Made by a program: the position numbers and the translations under genes. A stretch of DNA of 38,831 nucleotides, taken from positions 1 through 38,831 of the forward strand of contig RDXK01000103.1 in the NCBI GenBank assembly GCA_004292605.1, written 5' to 3'. The notes below the pieces were generated by a model. The model was given only the letters and a program-made list of their open reading frames with translations. It was not told the origin of the DNA and ran no database searches. Positions 1 to 38,831 of the stretch are shown one piece after another. Source of the stretch: Bacteroidota bacterium (GTDB lineage Bacteria; Bacteroidota; Bacteroidia; Chitinophagales; Chitinophagaceae). Positions within the stretch are counted from its first letter, which is position 1, and the number at the start of each line of letters is the position of its first letter.

Positions 1-3000
1 GTAGCTACTAATGTATTGCTGCTGCTCCATGTACCTCCACTTGTGGGTGATAATGTTGTTGTAGAACCTACACATATTGCTGATGCACCTAGTATGCTTG
101 ATGATGGCAACGCATTTACTACTCCTGCTACCGCAATATTTTGCGTAGTGGCTCCTAAGCTTACTAAACTTATATTTCCACTAAGTGTACCTGTTGCATT
201 GGCAGCTATTCTTACAAAAATATCTGTAGCATTTACAACTCCACTTACTTGTGTAAGCGTAATAGTATTTGTGTATGTACCTGTACTTGTAGTACTGATT
301 TCAAAACCACTTGGAGCGGTAATTACTATATTGTTTTGCAAATTGATACCGCTGGTGCTAAAACTTTGCGATGCACTGGTACTACCTAAGCAATTACTGA
401 AATTATTCAATGAACCAGATGTAGAAATAGTAGCATCGGCTACTTGTACCGTAAAATTATTATTGGCACTTATACAACCAGTTGTAGTATTTGTGACTTG
501 TAATATAAAATTATAAGTGTTTTGTGTACTAGCTGGAATGCTCACCGATATTGGGCTTGTAGATAAAGTGGCATTATTAACAGGTACAAAATTTGGCATT
601 GAGGTAGGAGAACCAGTTACAATACTATATTGATTGGGCAACCCTGTTGTATTGGTAAATGGCAAGCTAAAACTATTGGCATTTGTTCTTACCGATGTAA
701 CATTACCCAATGTAATAGTAGGTAATGTATTTACTGTTCCACTTACCAATATGTTTTGTGTGGTATAGCCAGGAGTGGATATTGTGATATTTCCTGTGGG
801 TGAACCAGTAGCAGTGCTAGCTAATCTTACATAAACTAAAGTGGCAGCTACATTACCAGCGATTTGTGTAAGAATAACCGATGAAGAAAACCCACTTCCG
901 CTAGTTGTGCTTACTTCGTAACCTACAGGTGCAGTAATAGTAATATTATTGTTTAATGAATTACCACTTACTGTAAAACTTTGTTCTGCACTTACAGTAC
1001 CAGCACATGTATTAAAGGCAGTAGGATTTGCCGATACAATTGGACCTGTTTGACCTACAAAAACCCAAGCTGCTCCTAATTGATTATTATCGGCAAAGCC
1101 ACCTACAAGTGCAGTATTTCCATCCGCACTTAATGCTACAGCGGCACCTTGATACGCAAAACCTGTGTTACCTGTTCCTACCAATTTATTGCCTTGTTGT
1201 GCCCAAGTAGTATTTGTTCTTCGAAATACCCAGGTAGCCCCTTGGTTATTGTTATCGGTTGATCCGCCAACAATAGCGGTATTACCATCGGCACTTATAG
1301 AAACGGTTCTTCCCTGACTGTTTACACTACCTACACCTCCTGTACCCACTAATTTATTGCCTTGTTGTGTCCATGTGGTACCACTTCGTGTAAATACCCA
1401 CGCTGCTCCAATACTGCTATTATCGGTATCGGCTCCAATAATGGCTGTATTACCATCGGCACTCAATGCTACAGATCTTCCTATACTTGCTGCACCTGTA
1501 TTACCAGTTGCTACCAATTTATTACCTTGTTGTGCCCAGGCAGTACCTATTCTAGTAAACACCCAAACCGCTCCTTGACCGCCATTATCATTGTAACCAC
1601 CTACCATGGCTGTATTACCATCGGCACTTAAGGCTACCGATATACCTTGAAAAGCGTTACCGGTATTACCTGTTCCTACCAATTTATTGCCTTGTTGTGT
1701 CCATGTGGTACCACTTCGTGTAAATACCCATGCTGCTCCTTGATTACCGTTATCATTCAAACCACCCACTAAAGCCGTATTACCATCGGCACTTAAGGCA
1801 ACAGAATAGCCCTGAGATGCATTACCCACATTTCCTGTTCCCACTAATTTACTGCCTTGTTGTGTCCATGTAGCACCAGTTCGTGTAAATACCCATGCTG
1901 CTCCCATGCTAGTATTATCTACATAGCCGCCTACTAATGCTGTATTTCCATCAGCACTTAAGGCAACCGACCATCCTTGAAAAGCATTTCCTATTGCACC
2001 AGTTCCAACTAACTTGTTGCCTTGTTGCGTCCAAGTGCTGCCATTTCTGGTATATATCCATACTGCTCCCTGAAAATTATTATCCTGATTGCCCCCTACT
2101 ATAGCGGTATTTCCATCGGCACTAATGGCCACTGAGTAGCCTTGTTGTGGCGTACTACCGCCACTACCTGTACCTACTAATTTATTGCCTTGCTGAAGAT
2201 TTGGCGTATTGGGTGCTGTTATGGTAAAATTAGCTGTACTATTACCTGTTCCACAAGTTGTGGTTACACTTGCTATGCCTGTAGTAGCCCCTGGCATCAC
2301 CATAGCAACTATTTGTGTGGCTGTACTATTAACAATTATGGCGGAAACACCACCAATATTTACGGTTGAAAGATTATTAAAATTTGTACCTACTATAGTT
2401 ACCAAAGTACCAATTGGGCCAGCACTTGGGGATATTGAAGTAATGGTAGGTGCCGATGTAACCGTACCATTAACAGCTATATTTTGCGTAGTTGCACCAG
2501 TACTAGTACATGCCAAATTACCACTTGGAGTGCCCGTAGCAGCATTCGATAATCTTACATAGATAGTTGTTGAAGAAACTGAACCACTACTTTGTGTTAA
2601 GGTTACCGAACTACCAAAACCACTACCACTTGTTGTACTTACCTCAAAACCCGTGGGAGCTGTAATGGTAATATCATTTGTAAGGGTACTACCACTTACC
2701 GTAAAACTTTGCTTAGCACTTGCACTGCCTACACAAGCAGTAAATGTAGTTAATGTACTGGTAACTGTAATAGTGGGTGGCGGTGCATATACAAACACCC
2801 AAGCTGCTCCTTGGCTGTTGTTATCGATTGCGCCTCCAATTATGGCTGTAGAAGCATCGGCACTTAAGGCTACAGAAGCACCTTGAAAAGCATTTCCTAC
2901 ATTTCCTGTACCCACTCTTTTATTGCCCTGTTGATTCCAAGTGCCACTACTTCTTGTATAAATCCAAGTAGCTCCTTGGTTAGAATTATCGTTTGATCCA

Positions 3001-6000
3001 CCTACTAACACTGTATTGCCGTCGGCACTTATCGCTACTGCTCTTCCTTGCTGTGCAGCACCTGTATTGCCAGTACCTACCAATTTACTACCTTGTAGCG
3101 ACCATGTAGTTCCAGTTCTTGTATAAATCCAAGCTGCACCCTGACCGCTATTATCTCCTGAGCCTCCTACAATGGCAGTATTGCCATTGGCACTTAAGGC
3201 TACTGAAACACCTTGTGCCGATGCTCCTGTATTACCTGTGCCTACTAATTTTGCACCTTGCTGTACCCAACTAAATCCATTGCGAACAAATACCCATGCT
3301 GCACCAATTCCACTATTATCTAAATTTCCTCCAGTAATTAAAGTATTACCATTAGCACTAATAGCCACAGAAGTTCCTTGATAAGGTGTTCCGCTAGAAC
3401 TACTGCCTACTAACTTACTTCCTTGTTGTGTCCAAGTTGTGCCTGCACGTACAAATACCCATGTAGCACCAATTTGGTTGTTATCAAAAAAACCACCCAC
3501 TACGGCTGTATTACCATCGGCACTTAAGGCTACTGCACTTCCTTGCCTTGCTCCGCCCGTATTGCCTGTGCCTACCAATTTATTGCCTTGTTGTGCCCAA
3601 GTTGTACCTGTTCTAACAAACACCCATGCGGCACCTTGATTGGTATTGTCCTCATTCCCTCCTACCAAAATAGTATTACCATCGGCACTAATAGCCACAG
3701 CCGCTCCCTGACGAGATTGACCTACATTACCTGAACCCACTAATTTAGTACCTTGTTGGCTCCATGTATTACCATTTCGTACAAACACCCATGCCGCACC
3801 CAAATTGCTGTTATCCGTAAACCCTCCAATAACAGCTGTATTACCATCGGCGCTGATAGCTGCTGAAGAGCCGGCTACCGCTACACCTGTATTGCCTGTA
3901 ACGGTTAATTTATTGCCTTGCTGAGCATTCAGCACTTGCGAATTATTGATAGTAAAGTTTGTAGTGCTTAATATCGACCCATTGCTAACGGTTACACCAA
4001 TACTACCTGTAATGGCACCTGGCATAACCATAGCTACTATTTGCGTTTCTGTAGTACTTAAAGTAATAGCACCAACACCTCCAATAGTTACCGATGTAGG
4101 ACTGGTAAAATTGGTTCCCGTTATTGTTACCAAACTACCAATAGTACCAGACGCAGGTGAAAATGAAGTAATAGTAGGTGAAGGCATATTGGTTAAAGGC
4201 CATGCAGCACCTAGTTGGCTATTATCTACATGCCCACCAACTAAACCAGTATTGCCATCGGCACTAATAGCAATGCTAACACCTAATTGTACAGGGCCAC
4301 TAGTTTGAGCACCCACAAATTTATTACCTTGTTGGCTCCAAGTGCTGCCAGTTCTGGTATACACCCACAGTGCTCCAATACTTGCATTATCTAAATTTGC
4401 ACTTACCAGTGCTGTATTTCCATCGGCACTTAAAGCTACAGCGTTGCCCTGTGCCGCATTACCCACTGCACCTGTGCCTACCAATTTATTGCCTTGCTGC
4501 GTCCAAGTATTACCCGTTCTGGTAAATACCCATGCAGCACCTTGATTACTATTATCACCGGTACCACCTACTAGTAATGTATTTCCATCTGCATTTAAAG
4601 CTACAGATATACCTTGAAGAGCAGGACCAGTATTACCTGAGCCTACTAATTTAGTGCCTTGCTGTGTCCAAGTTCCTGCGTTGTTTATAAAAATCCAAAC
4701 GGCTCCTTGGTTTGAATTGTCGTTTGCACCGCCAAGTGCAATGGTAGTAGCATCGGCACTAATGCTTACTGATCGTCCTATTGCTGAAATTGCACCTTGC
4801 CTACCAGAACCCACTAGTTTAGTACCTTGTTGTGTCCAACTAGTACCGCTACGGGTAAATACCCATGCAGCACCAACAGAGCTATTATCGCCATTTCCGC
4901 CAACAACAATTGTATTACCATCAGCACTAATACTTACCGACGTACCCTGCTGTGATGCACCTGTATTACCTGTACCAACTAGTTTAGTACCTTGCTGGGT
5001 CCAAGTGGTTCCTGTTCTTATAAATATCCACGCTGCCCCCACACTATTATTATCTGTCCATCCACCTACAACGGCTGTGTTGCCGTCGGCACTAATATCT
5101 ACCGACCAACCTTGCCTTGCAGCTCCGGTATTGCCAGTTCCAACCATTTTAGTGCCTTGCTGACTCCAAGTTGAGCCACTTCTAGTATAAAACCACACAG
5201 CTCCTTGATTGGTATTATCCAAAGGAGCACCTACAATGGCTGTATTACCATCGGCACTTAAAGCTACTGAATAGCCTTGTTGTGCATTGCCAGTATTACC
5301 TGTACCAACTAATTTATTGCCCTGTCCTGCATTGGGTATGGAAGATGCTACAACGGTGAAACTGCTATTGGCTGAACCACCTACATTGGTGACGGTAACC
5401 CCACCTGTTGATGCACCTGGCATTATCATGGCTACAATATTAGTGCCTGAATTACTTAAAATAATGGGTGCTACACCACCAATAGTTACAGTAGTATTGG
5501 TAGTAAAGTTGGTTCCAGTAATGGTAACCAAACTTCCAACGGATCCGGTGGCAGATGAAAGTGCGGTGATGGTTGGGGGTGGTTGTGCTACAAAAACCCA
5601 AGCTGCTCCAATATTATTGTTATCATTTGTACCGCCTACAATAGCTGTGTTGCCATCGGCACTTAATGCAATAGCCATACCCAGAGTTGCATTGCCTACT
5701 GCACCTGTTCCTATTAAGGTAGCAACTTGCTGTACCCAAATACCATTTATTTTGTTAAAAACAAAAGTGCCACCTTGATTATTATTGTATTGATGAGCAC
5801 TTGTAATAATCCTATCTCCATTAGCACTCATTGATAAAGAATAACCACTGTTTTGGCGATTTGAGTTTTCTACTGTTTCAATAGATGCACCATCTTGCTG
5901 CCATATTCCTCCAATTTTTGTAAAAATCCACATTGTACCTGAAAAATTGGAAGAAGCAATAGTAGTTCCATTTCCGTTTACGGCTATAGAAGAGCCTTGT

Positions 6001-8486
6001 TCGCTTGTTGCACTAGTTAAAGTACCTACTAACTTATTACCATCTTGTGTCCAAGTATCTCCGTTACGTATAAATACCCACACTGCACCGGTAGTGTTGT
6101 TATCAGCTCTTCCAGCAATTACTGCAGTATTACCATCGGTACTTAAAGCAACTTTGCCACCCTGTCGAGAACCACCTACATTACCTGTACCCACCAACTT
6201 ATTACCTTGTTGAACCCATGTGTTGCCAATTCTGGTAAATACCCATGCTGCACCTAACCATGACCCTTGTGACACTGAATTATCGCCACTTCCACCCACC
6301 AAAATGGTATTACCATCAGCACTTATAGAAACTGATTCACCTTGTTGAGGATTTGCACCAGAAGAACCTGTTCCTACCAATTTATTGCCTTGTTGAGTCC
6401 AAGTACTTCCAATCCTTGTAAATACCCAAACAGCACCTATACCATTATTATCGCTATTGCCGCCTACTGCTAAAGTATTGCCATCGGCACTTAACGCCAC
6501 AGAACTGCCTTGCCAAGCCGCACCTACACTACCTGTACCAACTAATTTTGTACCCTGCTGTGTCCATGTGTTACCATTTCTAATGTAAATCCAAACTGCC
6601 CCTTGTTCTGAATTGTCTCTAGGACCACCAACAGCCGCAGTATTTCCATCAGCACTAATAGCCACAGAAAAACCTTGAATTATATTGGTACCAATACTAC
6701 CTGTACCTAATAACTTATTGCCCTGTTGCGAATTGGGTGCTTGAGACGCATTAATAGTAAAATTAGTACTACTATTCACTGTTCCACTACCGGTAGTTAC
6801 ACTTACCACACCCGTTGTTGCACCCGGCATAACCATGGCTACTATTGTTGATCCATCGTTACTAATTGGGATAGCTGATACGCCACCAATGGTTACTGCC
6901 GTAAGATTATTTAAAGTGGTACCAGTAATGGTTACTAAACTACCTATTGGGCCAGAGCTAGGACTAAAATTGGTGATAGTTGGCGGCGGCGGTTGCACAT
7001 AATTATAACTCCAAAAAGCACCTTGATTAGAATTATCAGTAGGTCCACCCACTAATAAAGTATTACCATCGGCACTTATTGCAGGGTTATAACCTTGTTG
7101 TGCTGCACCTATATTACCTGTGCCTACTAATTTGTTATCTTGTTGACTCCATATTGTTCCACTTCGTGTAAAAACCCATACAGCTCCTTGATTGCTATTA
7201 TCCAGCACACTGCCTAATACAGCAATGTTACCATTGCCACTTATAGAAACAAAATTGGCTTGATAAGCCGCCCCAACATTACCCGTGCCCACTAATTTAT
7301 TACCTTGTTGACTCCATGTTGTTCCACCTCGTGTAAATATCCACGCTGCTCCATTATTGGTATTATCACCAGGCCCCCCAATAAGAGCCGTATTTCCATC
7401 AGCACTTATGGCGACAGATGTGCCTTGCTGTGCCGCACTTGTATTTCCTGTTCCTACTAATTTATTGCCTTGTTGGGTCCATGTTGTTCCGCTTCTTGTA
7501 AAAACCCATGCCGCTCCTTGCAAGGAATTATCTGCCCAACCTCCAACTAATAAAGTATTACCATCGGCACTTATTGCTACGGAAATACCCTGTTGTGCCG
7601 CACCGGTATTTCCAGTTCCTACTAATTTACTGCCCTGTTGGCTCCATGTTGTTCCGCTTCTTGTAAAAACCCACACTGCACCTTGATTAGAATTATCTCC
7701 ATACCCACCAACAATTACGGTATTGCCATCCGCACTAATATCCACTGCTCGCCCTTGATATGTAGTACTTCCCACACTACCACTACCCACTAATTTATTA
7801 CCTTGTTGGCTCCAAGTTGTTCCTGTTCTTACAAATATCCAAGCAGCTCCTCGTGAATTGTTATCAAAATTACCGCCAACTACTGCTGTGTTTCCATCTG
7901 TACTAATAGCTACTTTTATGCCTTGTTGTACGAATGAGCCTATTGCACCAGTTCCAACTAACTTGTTGCCTTGTTGTGTCCAAGTGTTTCCACTTCTTAC
8001 AAATATCCATGCAGCTCCTAAACCACTATTATCATTAAGCCCACCAACAATGGCTGTATTACCATCTGCACTTACATCTACCGACCAACCTTGTAGCGCT
8101 GCTCCTGTATTGCCTGTACCTACTAGTTTATTACCCTGTTGGGTATTGGGTGCTTGAGACGGATTAACTGTAAAATTCGTACTACTATTAGTTGTTCCGC
8201 TGCTGGTAGTTACACTTACCACACCCGTGGTTGCACCCGGCATAACCATAGCCACTAACTCCGTACCAGAATTACTTATTGGTATTGCCGCCACACCACC
8301 AATATTTATAGTTGTTGGGTTACTTAAATTGTTTCCACTAATGGTTACTAGAGTACCAACACTGCCAGAACTTGGTGTAATGATAGTAATGGTAGGGGCT
8401 TGGGCAAAAAGGCTATTGGTACTAAGCAATAAGATAGTGAATAGTAAACATACGTAGTTTACTACAGTGGGTACTTTGGGTTGCAT
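1..8486 (-). CDS. Giant secreted multi-domain protein (5'-complete, 3' end outside window): signal peptide, 5 x [IPT/TIG + seven FG-GAP-like blades], then Ig-like/SprB-like repeats
   Basis: Minus-strand reading from ATG at 8486: MQPKVPTVVNYVCLLFTILLLSTNSLFAQAPTITIITPSSGSVGTLVTISGNNLSNPTTINIGGVAAI... then many copies of QQGNKLVGTG...GxSVAISADGNTAIVGGxxDNxxxGAAWVFTRSGTTW. Same frame checked at both ends (ends ...LSPTSGGTWSSSNTLVA at base 3). The long + ORFs here all share one frame, as expected for shadows. Confidence 0.9.
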   Translation of the reverse strand, partial: MQPKVPTVVNYVCLLFTILLLSTNSLFAQAPTITIITPSSGSVGTLVTISGNNLSNPTTINIGGVAAIPISNSGTELVAMVMPGATTGVVSVTTSSGTTNSSTNFTVNPSQAPNTQQGNKLVGTGNTGAALQGWSVDVSADGNTAIVGGLNDNSGLGAAWIFVRSGNTWTQQGNKLVGTGAIGSFVQQGIKVAISTDGNTAVVGGNFDNNSRGAAWIFVRTGTTWSQQGNKLVGSGSVGSTTYQGRAVDISADGNTVIVGGYGDNSNQGAVWVFTRSGTTWSQQGSKLVGTGNTGAAQQGISVAISADGNTLLVGGWADNSLQGAAWVFTRSGTTWTQQGNKLVGTGNTSAAQQGTSVAISADGNTALIGGPGDNTNNGAAWIFTRGGTTWSQQGNKLVGTGNVGAAYQANFVSISGNGNIAVLGSVLDNSNQGAVWVFTRSGTIWSQQDNKLVGTGNIGAAQQGYNPAISADGNTLLVGGPTDNSNQGAFWSYNYVQPPPPTITNFSPSSGPIGSLVTITGTTLNNLTAVTIGGVSAIPISNDGSTIVAMVMPGATTGVVSVTTGSGTVNSSTNFTINASQAPNSQQGNKLLGTGSIGTNIIQGFSVAISADGNTAAVGGPRDNSEQGAVWIYIRNGNTWTQQGTKLVGTGSVGAAWQGSSVALSADGNTLAVGGNSDNNGIGAVWVFTRIGSTWTQQGNKLVGTGSSGANPQQGESVSISADGNTILVGGSGDNSVSQGSWLGAAWVFTRIGNTWVQQGNKLVGTGNVGGSRQGGKVALSTDGNTAVIAGRADNNTTGAVWVFIRNGDTWTQDGNKLVGTLTSATSEQGSSIAVNGNGTTIASSNFSGTMWIFTKIGGIWQQDGASIETVENSNRQNSGYSLSMSANGDRIITSAHQYNNNQGGTFVFNKINGIWVQQVATLIGTGAVGNATLGMAIALSADGNTAIVGGTNDNNNIGAAWVFVAQPPPTITALSSATGSVGSLVTITGTNFTTNTTVTIGGVAPIILSNSGTNIVAMIMPGASTGGVTVTNVGGSANSSFTVVASSIPNAGQGNKLVGTGNTGNAQQGYSVALSADGNTAIVGAPLDNTNQGAVWFYTRSGSTWSQQGTKMVGTGNTGAARQGWSVDISADGNTAVVGGWTDNNSVGAAWIFIRTGTTWTQQGTKLVGTGNTGASQQGTSVSISADGNTIVVGGNGDNSSVGAAWVFTRSGTSWTQQGTKLVGSGRQGAISAIGRSVSISADATTIALGGANDNSNQGAVWIFINNAGTWTQQGTKLVGSGNTGPALQGISVALNADGNTLLVGGTGDNSNQGAAWVFTRTGNTWTQQGNKLVGTGAVGNAAQGNAVALSADGNTALVSANLDNASIGALWVYTRTGSTWSQQGNKFVGAQTSGPVQLGVSIAISADGNTGLVGGHVDNSQLGAAWPLTNMPSPTITSFSPASGTIGSLVTITGTNFTSPTSVTIGGVGAITLSTTETQIVAMVMPGAITGSIGVTVSNGSILSTTNFTINNSQVLNAQQGNKLTVTGNTGVAVAGSSAAISADGNTAVIGGFTDNSNLGAAWVFVRNGNTWSQQGTKLVGSGNVGQSRQGAAVAISADGNTILVGGNEDNTNQGAAWVFVRTGTTWAQQGNKLVGTGNTGGARQGSAVALSADGNTAVVGGFFDNNQIGATWVFVRAGTTWTQQGSKLVGSSSSGTPYQGTSVAISANGNTLITGGNLDNSGIGAAWVFVRNGFSWVQQGAKLVGTGNTGASAQGVSVALSANGNTAIVGGSGDNSGQGAAWIYTRTGTTWSLQGSKLVGTGNTGAAQQGRAVAISADGNTVLVGGSNDNSNQGATWIYTRSSGTWNQQGNKRVGTGNVGNAFQGASVALSADASTAIIGGAIDNNSQGAAWVFVYAPPPTITVTSTLTTFTACVGSASAKQSFTVSGSTLTNDITITAPTGFEVSTTSGSGFGSSVTLTQSSGSVSSTTIYVRLSNAATGTPSGNLACTSTGATTQNIAVNGTVTSAPTITSISPSAGPIGTLVTIVGTNFNNLSTVNIGGVSAIIVNSTATQIVAMVMPGATTGIASVTTTCGTGNSTANFTITAPNTPNLQQGNKLVGTGSGGSTPQQGYSVAISADGNTAIVGGNQDNNFQGAVWIYTRNGSTWTQQGNKLVGTGAIGNAFQGWSVALSADGNTALVGGYVDNTSMGAAWVFTRTGATWTQQGSKLVGTGNVGNASQGYSVALSADGNTALVGGLNDNGNQGAAWVFTRSGTTWTQQGNKLVGTGNTGNAFQGISVALSADGNTAMVGGYNDNGGQGAVWVFTRIGTAWAQQGNKLVATGNTGAASIGRSVALSADGNTAIIGADTDNSSIGAAWVFTRSGTTWTQQGNKLVGTGGVGSVNSQGRTVSISADGNTAIVGGSTDNNNQGATWVFRRTNTTWAQQGNKLVGTGNTGFAYQGAAVALSADGNTALVGGFADNNQLGAAWVFVGQTGPIVSANPTAFNTCAGTVSAEQSFTVSGNSLNNNITITAPVGYEVSTTSGSGFSSSVILTQIAGNVAATLVYVRLASTATGSPTGNITISTPGYTTQNILVSGTVNTLPTITLGNVTSVRTNANSFSLPFTNTTGLPNQYSIVTGSPTSMPNFVPVNNATLSTSPISVSIPASTQNTYNFILQVTNTTTGCISANNNFTVQVADATISTSGSLNNFSNCLGSTSASQSFSTSGINLQNNIVITAPSGFEISTTSTGTYTNTITLTQVSGVVNATDIFVRIAANATGTLSGNISLVSLGATTQNIAVAGVVNALPSSSILGASAICVGSTTTLSPTSGGTWSSSNTLVA
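1055..2205 (-). repeat. Propeller cassette 5: seven blades after IPT5
   Basis: aattt/aactt anchors at 2179, 2011, 1846, 1681, 1516, 1351, ~1186; spacing mostly exactly 165 bp. Confidence 0.85.
2790..3930 (-). repeat. Propeller cassette 4: seven blades after IPT4
   Basis: Anchors near 3905, 3740, 3575, 3410, 3243, 3079, 2913. Confidence 0.85.
4195..5335 (-). repeat. Propeller cassette 3: seven blades after IPT3
   Basis: Anchors near 5307, 5142, 4978, 4812, 4645, 4480, 4315. Confidence 0.85.
5585..6740 (-). repeat. Propeller cassette 2: seven blades (one divergent) after IPT2
   Basis: Anchors near 6708, 6540, 6377, 6195, 6025, ~5890 (degenerate: IWQQDGASIETVENSNRQ), 5710. Confidence 0.8.
7000..8152 (-). 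repeat. Propeller cassette 1: seven FG-GAP-like blades after IPT1
   Basis: QQGNKLVG anchors (plus-strand forms of 'accaatttattgccttgttg') near 8125, 7958, 7790, 7621, 7457, 7292, 7125. Confidence 0.85.
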
Positions 8487-36504: not shown

Positions 36505-38831
36505 TTACTGCACCACTATTCTTTGAGTGGAACTTACCTGCCCATTGGTTATTTGAAGTTGATAGGTACCTGCCGTTAGTGTGTTTAATTCCAAACTTTG
36601 GATAGTACTGCCACCTGCATGACTCACAACTTGTTGCTTTACCAACTGGCCTGCTGTGTTGTACACCTTGAGCGTGTATTGTCCTTCATCAGCGTTTTCA
36701 AATAATACCGTAACTATACCATTTGTTATTCGAGTGGGAGCCACCACAAATCTTTTTTCACTTTGTCCAATTCGCACATTTACAATATTGCTGTATTGGA
36801 CGGTGCCATCTGTATTAATGGCTTTTATACGGTAAAAGTTGTTACCATTGTTTACCGAACCATCGTACCAACTGTAATTATTTCTTCCCGTCGCTATTTT
36901 ACTGCCTGCCTTGGTAAAATTAATGCCATTGGCACTTTCTTCCACGTCGTACGATGCCAAGTGATGTTCTACACCTACGTTCCATTCCACGTTTATGCCG
37001 CTGGCCTGTTGGTATGCTTTTACACTCGTAAAAGTTACGGGCAAGGTTGCCGACTGCTTAAATACAAGTTCAAATCTATGGTTGCCTTGACTAGCAGTGT
37101 CCGTAGTGGTACCAAAATTATACGTGTACCCACCACTAGTAATGGCTTGCTCTACCTGCAGCCATTTATCTCGTAAGAAAGCACTATACCCTGTAGGTAT
37201 TTGCAGGTTGACCACCTTTATTACAAATCGTTTAGAAGTGATGCTATTTAGACCGAGCCTTACTATACTGGTTGCATCTCGAGGTTCAGGGCGACTGTCT
37301 AGTTTGAGCATCTGGTTGTCGCCATCCGAAATAGAATAAATTGCATAATTATTGAGCATCTTGCCACCATCCTTGGCATCGTTTATGGTACCCACTAATG
37401 CATGGTTATCAAATCTTAAGTCATAATCGTCTAGTATTTCTTCTGTAGCACTATCCAATAAGTGAATACTAATATTTGCATTTAGGGTAGTGGTTCTGAA
37501 AGCAAGACTTGAGCCCGTAGTTTTATCAACTTCGGCAAAGTTGATAGTGTTGGCTGTGGCCTGTTTGTTTTGTACCAATACTACGCCGTATGCCGGTAGC
37601 ACAAAGCTACCAGTACTACTTATATCAATTGCATCGTATCCGCCACGGCTAGTTCCTGCTTTATTTGGATTAAATACATAAGCCACTGCACCAATATTAC
37701 CTGCACCACCATTGTATTTATTGTTTAGTAGTGTTCGTACTTGTATGGGGCTTGGGTAAGGATTACCCACCAAACTCCATTGATTATTAGCACCTCCCGG
37801 CAAAGTAAATGTTTGGTTGCCCGTGTTGACGGTGCCATTCATGCTAAGCGTTACGTCGCTAGCTGTATAGTTGGTACCGTTGTAAGTAAGGCCTTCGCCT
37901 TTTGCTCCTCTAAACAACACACGTATACCATTTCCTTTTTTCCAAAGGTTGGGGTTACTTCCAACTGCTACACCAGTTCCGCGGGTAAACGCTTGCCAGC
38001 CAGCATCGTTACTTACACCACTGCCTACAGTGGTACTGTTGCCGGCATTTAAAGCAGTAGGATCGTACCAGAAAGCACTAGCATTATTGGTAGTGGTGGC
38101 ATCAAAGCCGTTGGCGGCACCACCCATACCAGAGATATCTATATTTCCCGTAGCTCGCAATTGTGTTAGTGATAAGTCGGTAGTAAATGGATGACTTAAA
38201 AATCTAAACCCTCGTCTACCGGGTGTACCATCGCTATTACCGCCGGCTATATAACGTTGCACATGGAACCGACCGGTGCCGTAAGTAAAGGGATTAACCA
38301 CCGTAGTAGCGGCGATACTTGCTGTATTGGTAGCCGAAGAAACTAGGGTGATATTATTATTGCCCAGAGCAAGCTGGCCAGCTAGCGTATTTATTGCTCC
38401 GCTAATATTTATATTACCACCAAGCGTTACACCTGCTTCATTATTTATGACAAGATTTTTTAGGTTATTACCGGAAAATAAATTTGCTGGAATAGTTTGT
38501 ACGGTGGTACCTACTAGTACTAAACTGCCATTACTGGCATTGATAGTTCCATTGTTAATAATTTGACCAGCGAGTTTGAAATTGCCGGTGGCCCCGATGG
38601 TTGCTTGTGCATTATGAGGAACGCTAAAATTTCTGGAAAACCCATCTCCCGAATTTAAAATTGGAAAATTGGAAACCGTACTGTTTATATAAACATTTGA
38701 TTTTATACTAGGAATACCCCCCAACCAGTTACTGGCATTAGCCCAATCGGAGCTAACTGCACCCGACCATGTACTGGTGGGCTCATAAGCACCTCTGCTG
38801 TTACTATTAAAGCGGCTATTACCTAAAATAT
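36505..38831 (-). CDS. Large secreted protein with C-terminal T9SS type A sorting domain (5' end outside window)
   Basis: C-term YTLKVYNTAGQLVKQQVVSHAGGSTIQSLELNTLTAGTYQLQITNGQVSSTQRIVVQ*. Frame stays open to 38831 (...NGRFNSNSRGAYEPTSTWSGAVSSDWANASNWLGGIPS), so the listed start at 38724 is internal. Confidence 0.9.
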   Translation of the reverse strand, partial: ILGNSRFNSNSRGAYEPTSTWSGAVSSDWANASNWLGGIPSIKSNVYINSTVSNFPILNSGDGFSRNFSVPHNAQATIGATGNFKLAGQIINNGTINASNGSLVLVGTTVQTIPANLFSGNNLKNLVINNEAGVTLGGNINISGAINTLAGQLALGNNNITLVSSATNTASIAATTVVNPFTYGTGRFHVQRYIAGGNSDGTPGRRGFRFLSHPFTTDLSLTQLRATGNIDISGMGGAANGFDATTTNNASAFWYDPTALNAGNSTTVGSGVSNDAGWQAFTRGTGVAVGSNPNLWKKGNGIRVLFRGAKGEGLTYNGTNYTASDVTLSMNGTVNTGNQTFTLPGGANNQWSLVGNPYPSPIQVRTLLNNKYNGGAGNIGAVAYVFNPNKAGTSRGGYDAIDISSTGSFVLPAYGVVLVQNKQATANTINFAEVDKTTGSSLAFRTTTLNANISIHLLDSATEEILDDYDLRFDNHALVGTINDAKDGGKMLNNYAIYSISDGDNQMLKLDSRPEPRDATSIVRLGLNSITSKRFVIKVVNLQIPTGYSAFLRDKWLQVEQAITSGGYTYNFGTTTDTASQGNHRFELVFKQSATLPVTFTSVKAYQQASGINVEWNVGVEHHLASYDVEESANGINFTKAGSKIATGRNNYSWYDGSVNNGNNFYRIKAINTDGTVQYSNIVNVRIGQSEKRFVVAPTRITNGIVTVLFENADEGQYTLKVYNTAGQLVKQQVVSHAGGSTIQSLELNTLTAGTYQLQITNGQVSSTQRIVVQ

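Follow-up and report, generated by a model that had tools for sequence, protein, structure and literature searches.

A giant open reading frame in Bacteroidota with five tandem cassettes, each an IPT domain followed by a predicted seven-bladed FG-GAP_2-type propeller

The IPT-containing glycan- and nutrient-binding proteins of Bacteroides, which we take to be lipoproteins, include auxiliary nutrient-binding proteins in which an IPT domain precedes a beta-propeller; the propellers of these proteins (3kya, 3tc9 and 4hw6) are presumably of the NHL type. Bacterial seven-bladed propellers of the integrin type were reported in 2011, some of them as two tandem copies, by Chouhan et al. (PMC3192720), and arrays of repetitive propellers are also known (Pereira and Lupas 2022, PMC9218822). 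When a chain holds many near-identical propeller blades, an open question is how it defines where each ring stops and the following one starts. Here, we describe a string of propeller cassettes in which an IPT domain and a last unit without its fourth strand delimit every ring, so that the ring boundaries can be read from the sequence.

The window, i.e., the whole stretch of 38,831 nucleotides that was analysed, is the entire contig C256 of a draft genome (2.97 Mb in 331 contigs). Its minus strand carries an open reading frame (ORF) that runs from position 8486 to the contig edge, over at least 2828 amino acids, and has the following features.

3..8486, minus strand: giant ORF, ATG start at 8486; open at position 1, C-terminus missing.
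8397..8486, minus strand: signal-peptide-like N-terminus, aa 1-30 (translation, by eye).
6993..8405, minus strand: cassette 1, IPT and seven blades (IPT and unit HMM).
5586..6992, minus strand: cassette 2, IPT and seven blades, of which blades 5 and 6 are degenerate (IPT and unit HMM).
4188..5585, minus strand: cassette 3, IPT and seven blades (IPT and unit HMM; structure model).
2787..4187, minus strand: cassette 4, IPT and seven blades (IPT and unit HMM; structure models).
2457..2786, minus strand: Ig-like module of about 105 aa (translation; no Pfam family above cut-off).
1047..2459, minus strand: cassette 5, IPT and seven blades (IPT and unit HMM).
3..1046, minus strand: C-terminal region as present, with copies of the Ig-like module and a PKD/SprB-like linker (translation).

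Using a unit HMM trained on 33 clear repeats, we found 35 FG-GAP_2-type units of about 55 amino acids (E values from 1e-8 to 1e-31), which fall into five blocks of seven, each preceded by an IPT/TIG domain. Two of the 35 units are degenerate, namely blade 5 (50.4 bits) and blade 6 (aa 873-917, 20.8 bits) of block 2. By profile, the ORF is classed as FG-GAP_2 plus IPT/TIG: Pfam FG-GAP_2 (PF14312) matched 16 stretches (4.2e-48, 161.7 bits for a cut-off of 23) and Pfam TIG (PF01833) matched five (2.4e-25, 88.8 bits for a cut-off of 20.9). Matches to SET7_N and Kelch_2, which were below cut-off, were dropped. The five IPT domains begin at aa 31, 502, 971, 1437 and 2013 (window positions 8396, 6983, 5576, 4178 and 2450), in steps of 471, 469, 466 and 576 aa, the last step being longer because the Ig-like module precedes cassette 5. 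This module (motif FTxCxGSxSAxQSFTVSGxxL...GFEVSTTSGSGF...) occurs in about three copies, one before cassette 5 and about two after it; it was also found in one of the relatives described below (L020).

These results bear out the initial annotation of the locus as five IPT plus seven-blade cassettes, with 35 blades in all and an extra Ig-like module ahead of the fifth, in a frame free of stops and frameshifts throughout the assembled 2828 aa; both FG-GAP_2 and TIG/IPT exceeded their curated cut-offs in the HMM search that it had suggested. Other parts of this description had to be adjusted. The array is real, but it spans about 8405-1047 rather than 1055-8405, and the gene continues beyond the array and past the end of the contig. 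Each block does contain seven units, but they cannot all be counted from literal QQGNKLVG anchors, since a search for this string missed blade 6 of block 2. Likewise, the seventh unit lacks its fourth strand as proposed, but GAAWVFV is not its constant ending, which reads AFWSYNY in block 1 and AAWPLTN in block 3.

The fold was modelled with AlphaFold2 for cassette 4 (mean pLDDT 87.2, pTM 0.78), using the other four cassettes of the giant ORF as the alignment, and for cassettes 3 and 4 together (mean pLDDT 91.0, pTM 0.74), using an alignment that included 18 further two-cassette sequences. In the strand lists of these models, a four-stranded blade period recurs seven times per cassette, and the last blade has strands 1-3, which are followed directly by the next IPT domain or by the chain end. 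Blades crossing a cassette boundary, or numbering other than seven, would have spoken against the initial annotation; none appeared in the model of the two consecutive cassettes. In Foldseek, the top PDB matches of the single cassette were integrin alpha headpieces (4irz_A, E 2.9e-16, TMq 0.62), with which the IPT part (about 85 of the 467 residues) is not expected to align, and the best match of the two-cassette model was 2ymu (a 'highly repetitive propeller structure'), followed by other multi-propeller chains. That each cassette would form seven four-stranded blades, as integrin-type propellers do, is well supported by the predicted structure.

Closure of the ring by the N-terminal anchor predicts a seventh unit without the fourth strand that the other units pass to their neighbour. 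In the related loci, the fourth-strand pattern follows 449 of the 533 inner units (it is absent after the other 84) and none of the 87 seventh units. Taking together the strand pattern, the Foldseek matches and the comparison of relatives, it is very likely that the N-terminal anchor closes the ring, which supports the earlier suggestion that the N- and C-terminal strands jointly complete one blade.

The relatives comprise 76 loci (L numbers), mostly from Bacteroidota, in which 88 of the 103 interior blocks have exactly seven units. Most of them carry one cassette, several carry two or three, and L021 and L024 carry four; a string of five, the longest seen, occurs only in the giant ORF among the loci compared. 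The architecture had been called unusual, but it is less so than this suggests: the IPT plus seven-blade cassette itself is not unique and occurs across Bacteroidota, in tandems of up to four elsewhere. The blocks of 14 units in L070 and L072 are presumably two rings without a spacer. Apparently complete blocks of five units (in L020, from a Runella genome, and in L075) or six units (L054, L080) start normally and have the usual truncated end; they are either collapsed assemblies or genuine smaller rings. Draft genomes under other labels, among them Ignavibacteria, Acidobacteria and Actinobacteria, also hold seven-unit blocks without IPT, and binning errors may be behind some of these non-Bacteroidota labels. 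In L062, from a genome labelled Dependentiae, three adjoining ORFs each hold a seven-unit block without IPT.

In the family of the host, a match was found in 25 of the 299 sampled genomes and 20 of the 104 genera, and none was found in the one listed genome of the same genus (80% complete); the gene is accessory in this family. In the cassette tree, which is poorly resolved, the cassettes of one gene often group together (L020, L021, L029, L050), which suggests that cassettes were duplicated repeatedly within genes. The five cassettes of the giant ORF form no supported clade in this tree, and cassettes 3 to 5 alone group, weakly, at 85. The blades of the giant ORF are rather uniform (about 60% identity from blade to blade), and those at the same position in different cassettes are slightly more alike than expected (0.609 versus 0.592; 2 of 2000 permutations), which hints weakly at whole-cassette duplication. 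The host genome (G000) also harbours a paralogue, seemingly split between contigs C169 (L008) and C287 (L007), which comprises SBBP repeats, Ig, IPT, seven-blade-like FG-GAP_2 and a T9SS type A tail. The frames of the two contigs fit seven blades in total and no exact overlap was found between the contigs, the join being one that we infer.

Concerning secretion, the N-terminus of the giant ORF (MQPKVPTVVNYVCLLFTILLLSTNSLFAQ) is hydrophobic and resembles a signal peptide when its translation is inspected by eye. A search of the same genome for the missing C-terminus, with the protein and the terminal 130 bases, found nothing past the contig end, and seven contig-edge stretches with possible T9SS tails held no recognisable continuation of the ORF. 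In most of the complete relatives tested, the C-terminus is a T9SS sorting domain, which scored above cut-off in L021, L033 and L037 (type A) and in L028 and L044 (type B), and slightly under NCBI's cut-off in L039 (type A), L023 and L047 (type B); L023 also has CHU_C above the Pfam cut-off. The C-terminal domain of L020 is of another kind (3-coathanger), and the C-terminal scan of L029 found no sorting domain. The host genome has 39 matches to T9SS type A tails, one of them on the FG-GAP_2-repeat paralogue at C287. The relatives and this paralogue suggest that the product of the giant ORF, whose own C-terminus is missing, would undergo type IX secretion. At the other end of the contig, a second large ORF (36505-38829, minus strand), which is open there, has a T9SS type A sorting domain.

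Blades differ most from one another in two loops, 4-1 and 2-3, and at the beginning of strand A, and the 1-2 loop (SADGN) and the anchor are nearly fixed. Across 732 units, the mean entropy of the 4-1 and 2-3 loops was 2.54 bits, versus 1.25 bits for the 1-2 and 3-4 loops (permutation p 0.0025); the corresponding values for the 35 units of the giant ORF were 1.87 and 1.15 (p 0.054). From propeller geometry in general, the variable loops are assigned to one, the upper, face. Loop variability would also be expected from relaxed constraint. The integrin propeller participates in ligand recognition (PMC3192720). Because of the variable loops and of this role of the integrin propeller, we favour surface-anchored multivalent binding and propose that the product is probably a type IX-secreted, surface-anchored, fibre-like multivalent adhesin or binding scaffold made of closed seven-bladed propellers, the type IX secretion of this copy, its anchoring and its ligand binding being what we infer. 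The giant protein would be exported by Sec, secreted by the type IX system and then anchored at the surface. Each cassette would consist of a spacer with the Ig fold, the IPT domain, and after it a seven-bladed beta-propeller that closes on its own, with its leading QQGNKLVG strand pairing with the three-stranded last blade to lock the ring. The IPT spacers and the C-terminal Ig-like stretch would keep the propellers apart, the variable upper-face loops would bind ligands, for which glycans or surface proteins on particles or other cells are the likeliest candidates, and the five propeller copies would give avidity. More tentatively, the protein could be a multi-headed adhesin in which the five propellers, with different variable upper-face residues, hold several different ligands per chain, and the IPT domains act as punctuation that sorts the blades into sevens.

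Other readings give the propellers a different part, the main rivals being a stalk role and nutrient capture. The propellers could be mainly structural spacers of a rigid stalk, with binding performed by a C-terminal domain missing from the assembly or not at all. In support of this, long low-charge repeat arrays with Ig-like modules are a typical feature of stalks, fibrillar adhesins are known to have TIG as a stalk domain (PMC9210967) and the blades are rather uniform. However, next to the Ig-like folds that stalks usually have, propellers are bulky, the variability is gathered in the loops of one face, and the single cassette of many relatives would make a poor stalk; we regard a mainly structural role as doubtful. 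Alternatively, the product could be secreted in soluble form and, instead of being an adhesin, act as a lectin-like glycan binder or capture nutrients, comparable to the IPT-containing surface glycan-binding proteins of Bacteroides. This would agree with the resemblance of the IPT part to SGBP-B (BACOVA_02650, 5e7h, E 3e-7) and to auxiliary nutrient-binding proteins made of IPT plus a propeller (in sequence to 3kya, in fold to 3tc9 and 4hw6). The weak match of L020 to the CV39L lectin family (3e-4) points the same way, but it reaches 20 of 350 bits, far under cut-off, and was dropped. The IPT-containing Bacteroides comparators carry one propeller only, and no SusC/SusD or carbohydrate-enzyme genes were found among the neighbours scanned (response regulator, sensor kinase and EF-G), which do not point to a ligand; nutrient capture thus appears improbable.

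As the C-terminus is not assembled, a giant exported protein could also bear an effector or a toxin past the contig edge, with the propellers as its delivery stalk, but it is T9SS sorting domains, not effectors, that end most of the complete relatives tested, and we give this idea very little credence. Finally, the five times seven count could be an assembly artefact, given that repetitive DNA is hard to assemble and that the draft genome is in 331 contigs. Collapse or expansion by the assembler is nevertheless unlikely because DNA identity between the unit copies is mostly 60-78%, which is too low for them to be collapsed at ordinary read length, and unrelated assemblies also have seven units in a block as a rule; an artefact would be extremely surprising. 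The family of IPT plus seven-blade proteins, widespread but little studied, also points to a class of large Bacteroidota surface proteins that is so far uncharacterised.

Compared with known FG-GAP_2 (PF14312) proteins, the giant ORF likewise scores above the family cut-off and has units of about 55 aa and, in its relatives, seven units per ring, but it carries five rings per chain, each headed by an IPT domain. It shares seven four-stranded blades with the integrin alpha N-terminal and bacterial integrin-type propellers (PMC3192720), which are the nearest solved fold of a single cassette. By contrast, the motifs given in that study are rare or absent here: the DxDxDG calcium-binding 1-2 loop occurs in none of the 35 blades and the FG-GAP/Cage motif with its conserved proline in four. 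Under the strict published definition, the giant ORF therefore falls outside the integrin-type propellers, although the two may well share their fold and way of working; the initial label of FG-GAP, integrin-like, is right as to the fold and wrong as to the motifs, and the family is PF14312, not PF01839. The bacterial integrin-type tandems of the same study have two copies, versus five here, and its accessible portion does not mention IPT spacers. The Bacteroides auxiliary nutrient-binding proteins (3kya, 3tc9, 4hw6) likewise come from Bacteroidota and have an IPT domain followed by a beta-propeller, but this propeller belongs to another family and the cassette is single.

Seven-bladed bacterial propellers and repetitive arrays are known already, and we found no description of IPT-punctuated seven-blade strings in the open-access literature. 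In the family of IPT plus seven-blade cassettes, the rule that rings close at seven blades can be examined in numerous natural cases, a few of them exceptions with five or six units, and this testable rule is the main scientific value of the five-propeller string. Like the highly repetitive propellers (PMC9218822; PDB 2ymu), the giant ORF has amplified near-identical blades and several rings per chain, but the ring boundaries, which are ambiguous in some of those proteins, are marked here by the IPT domains.
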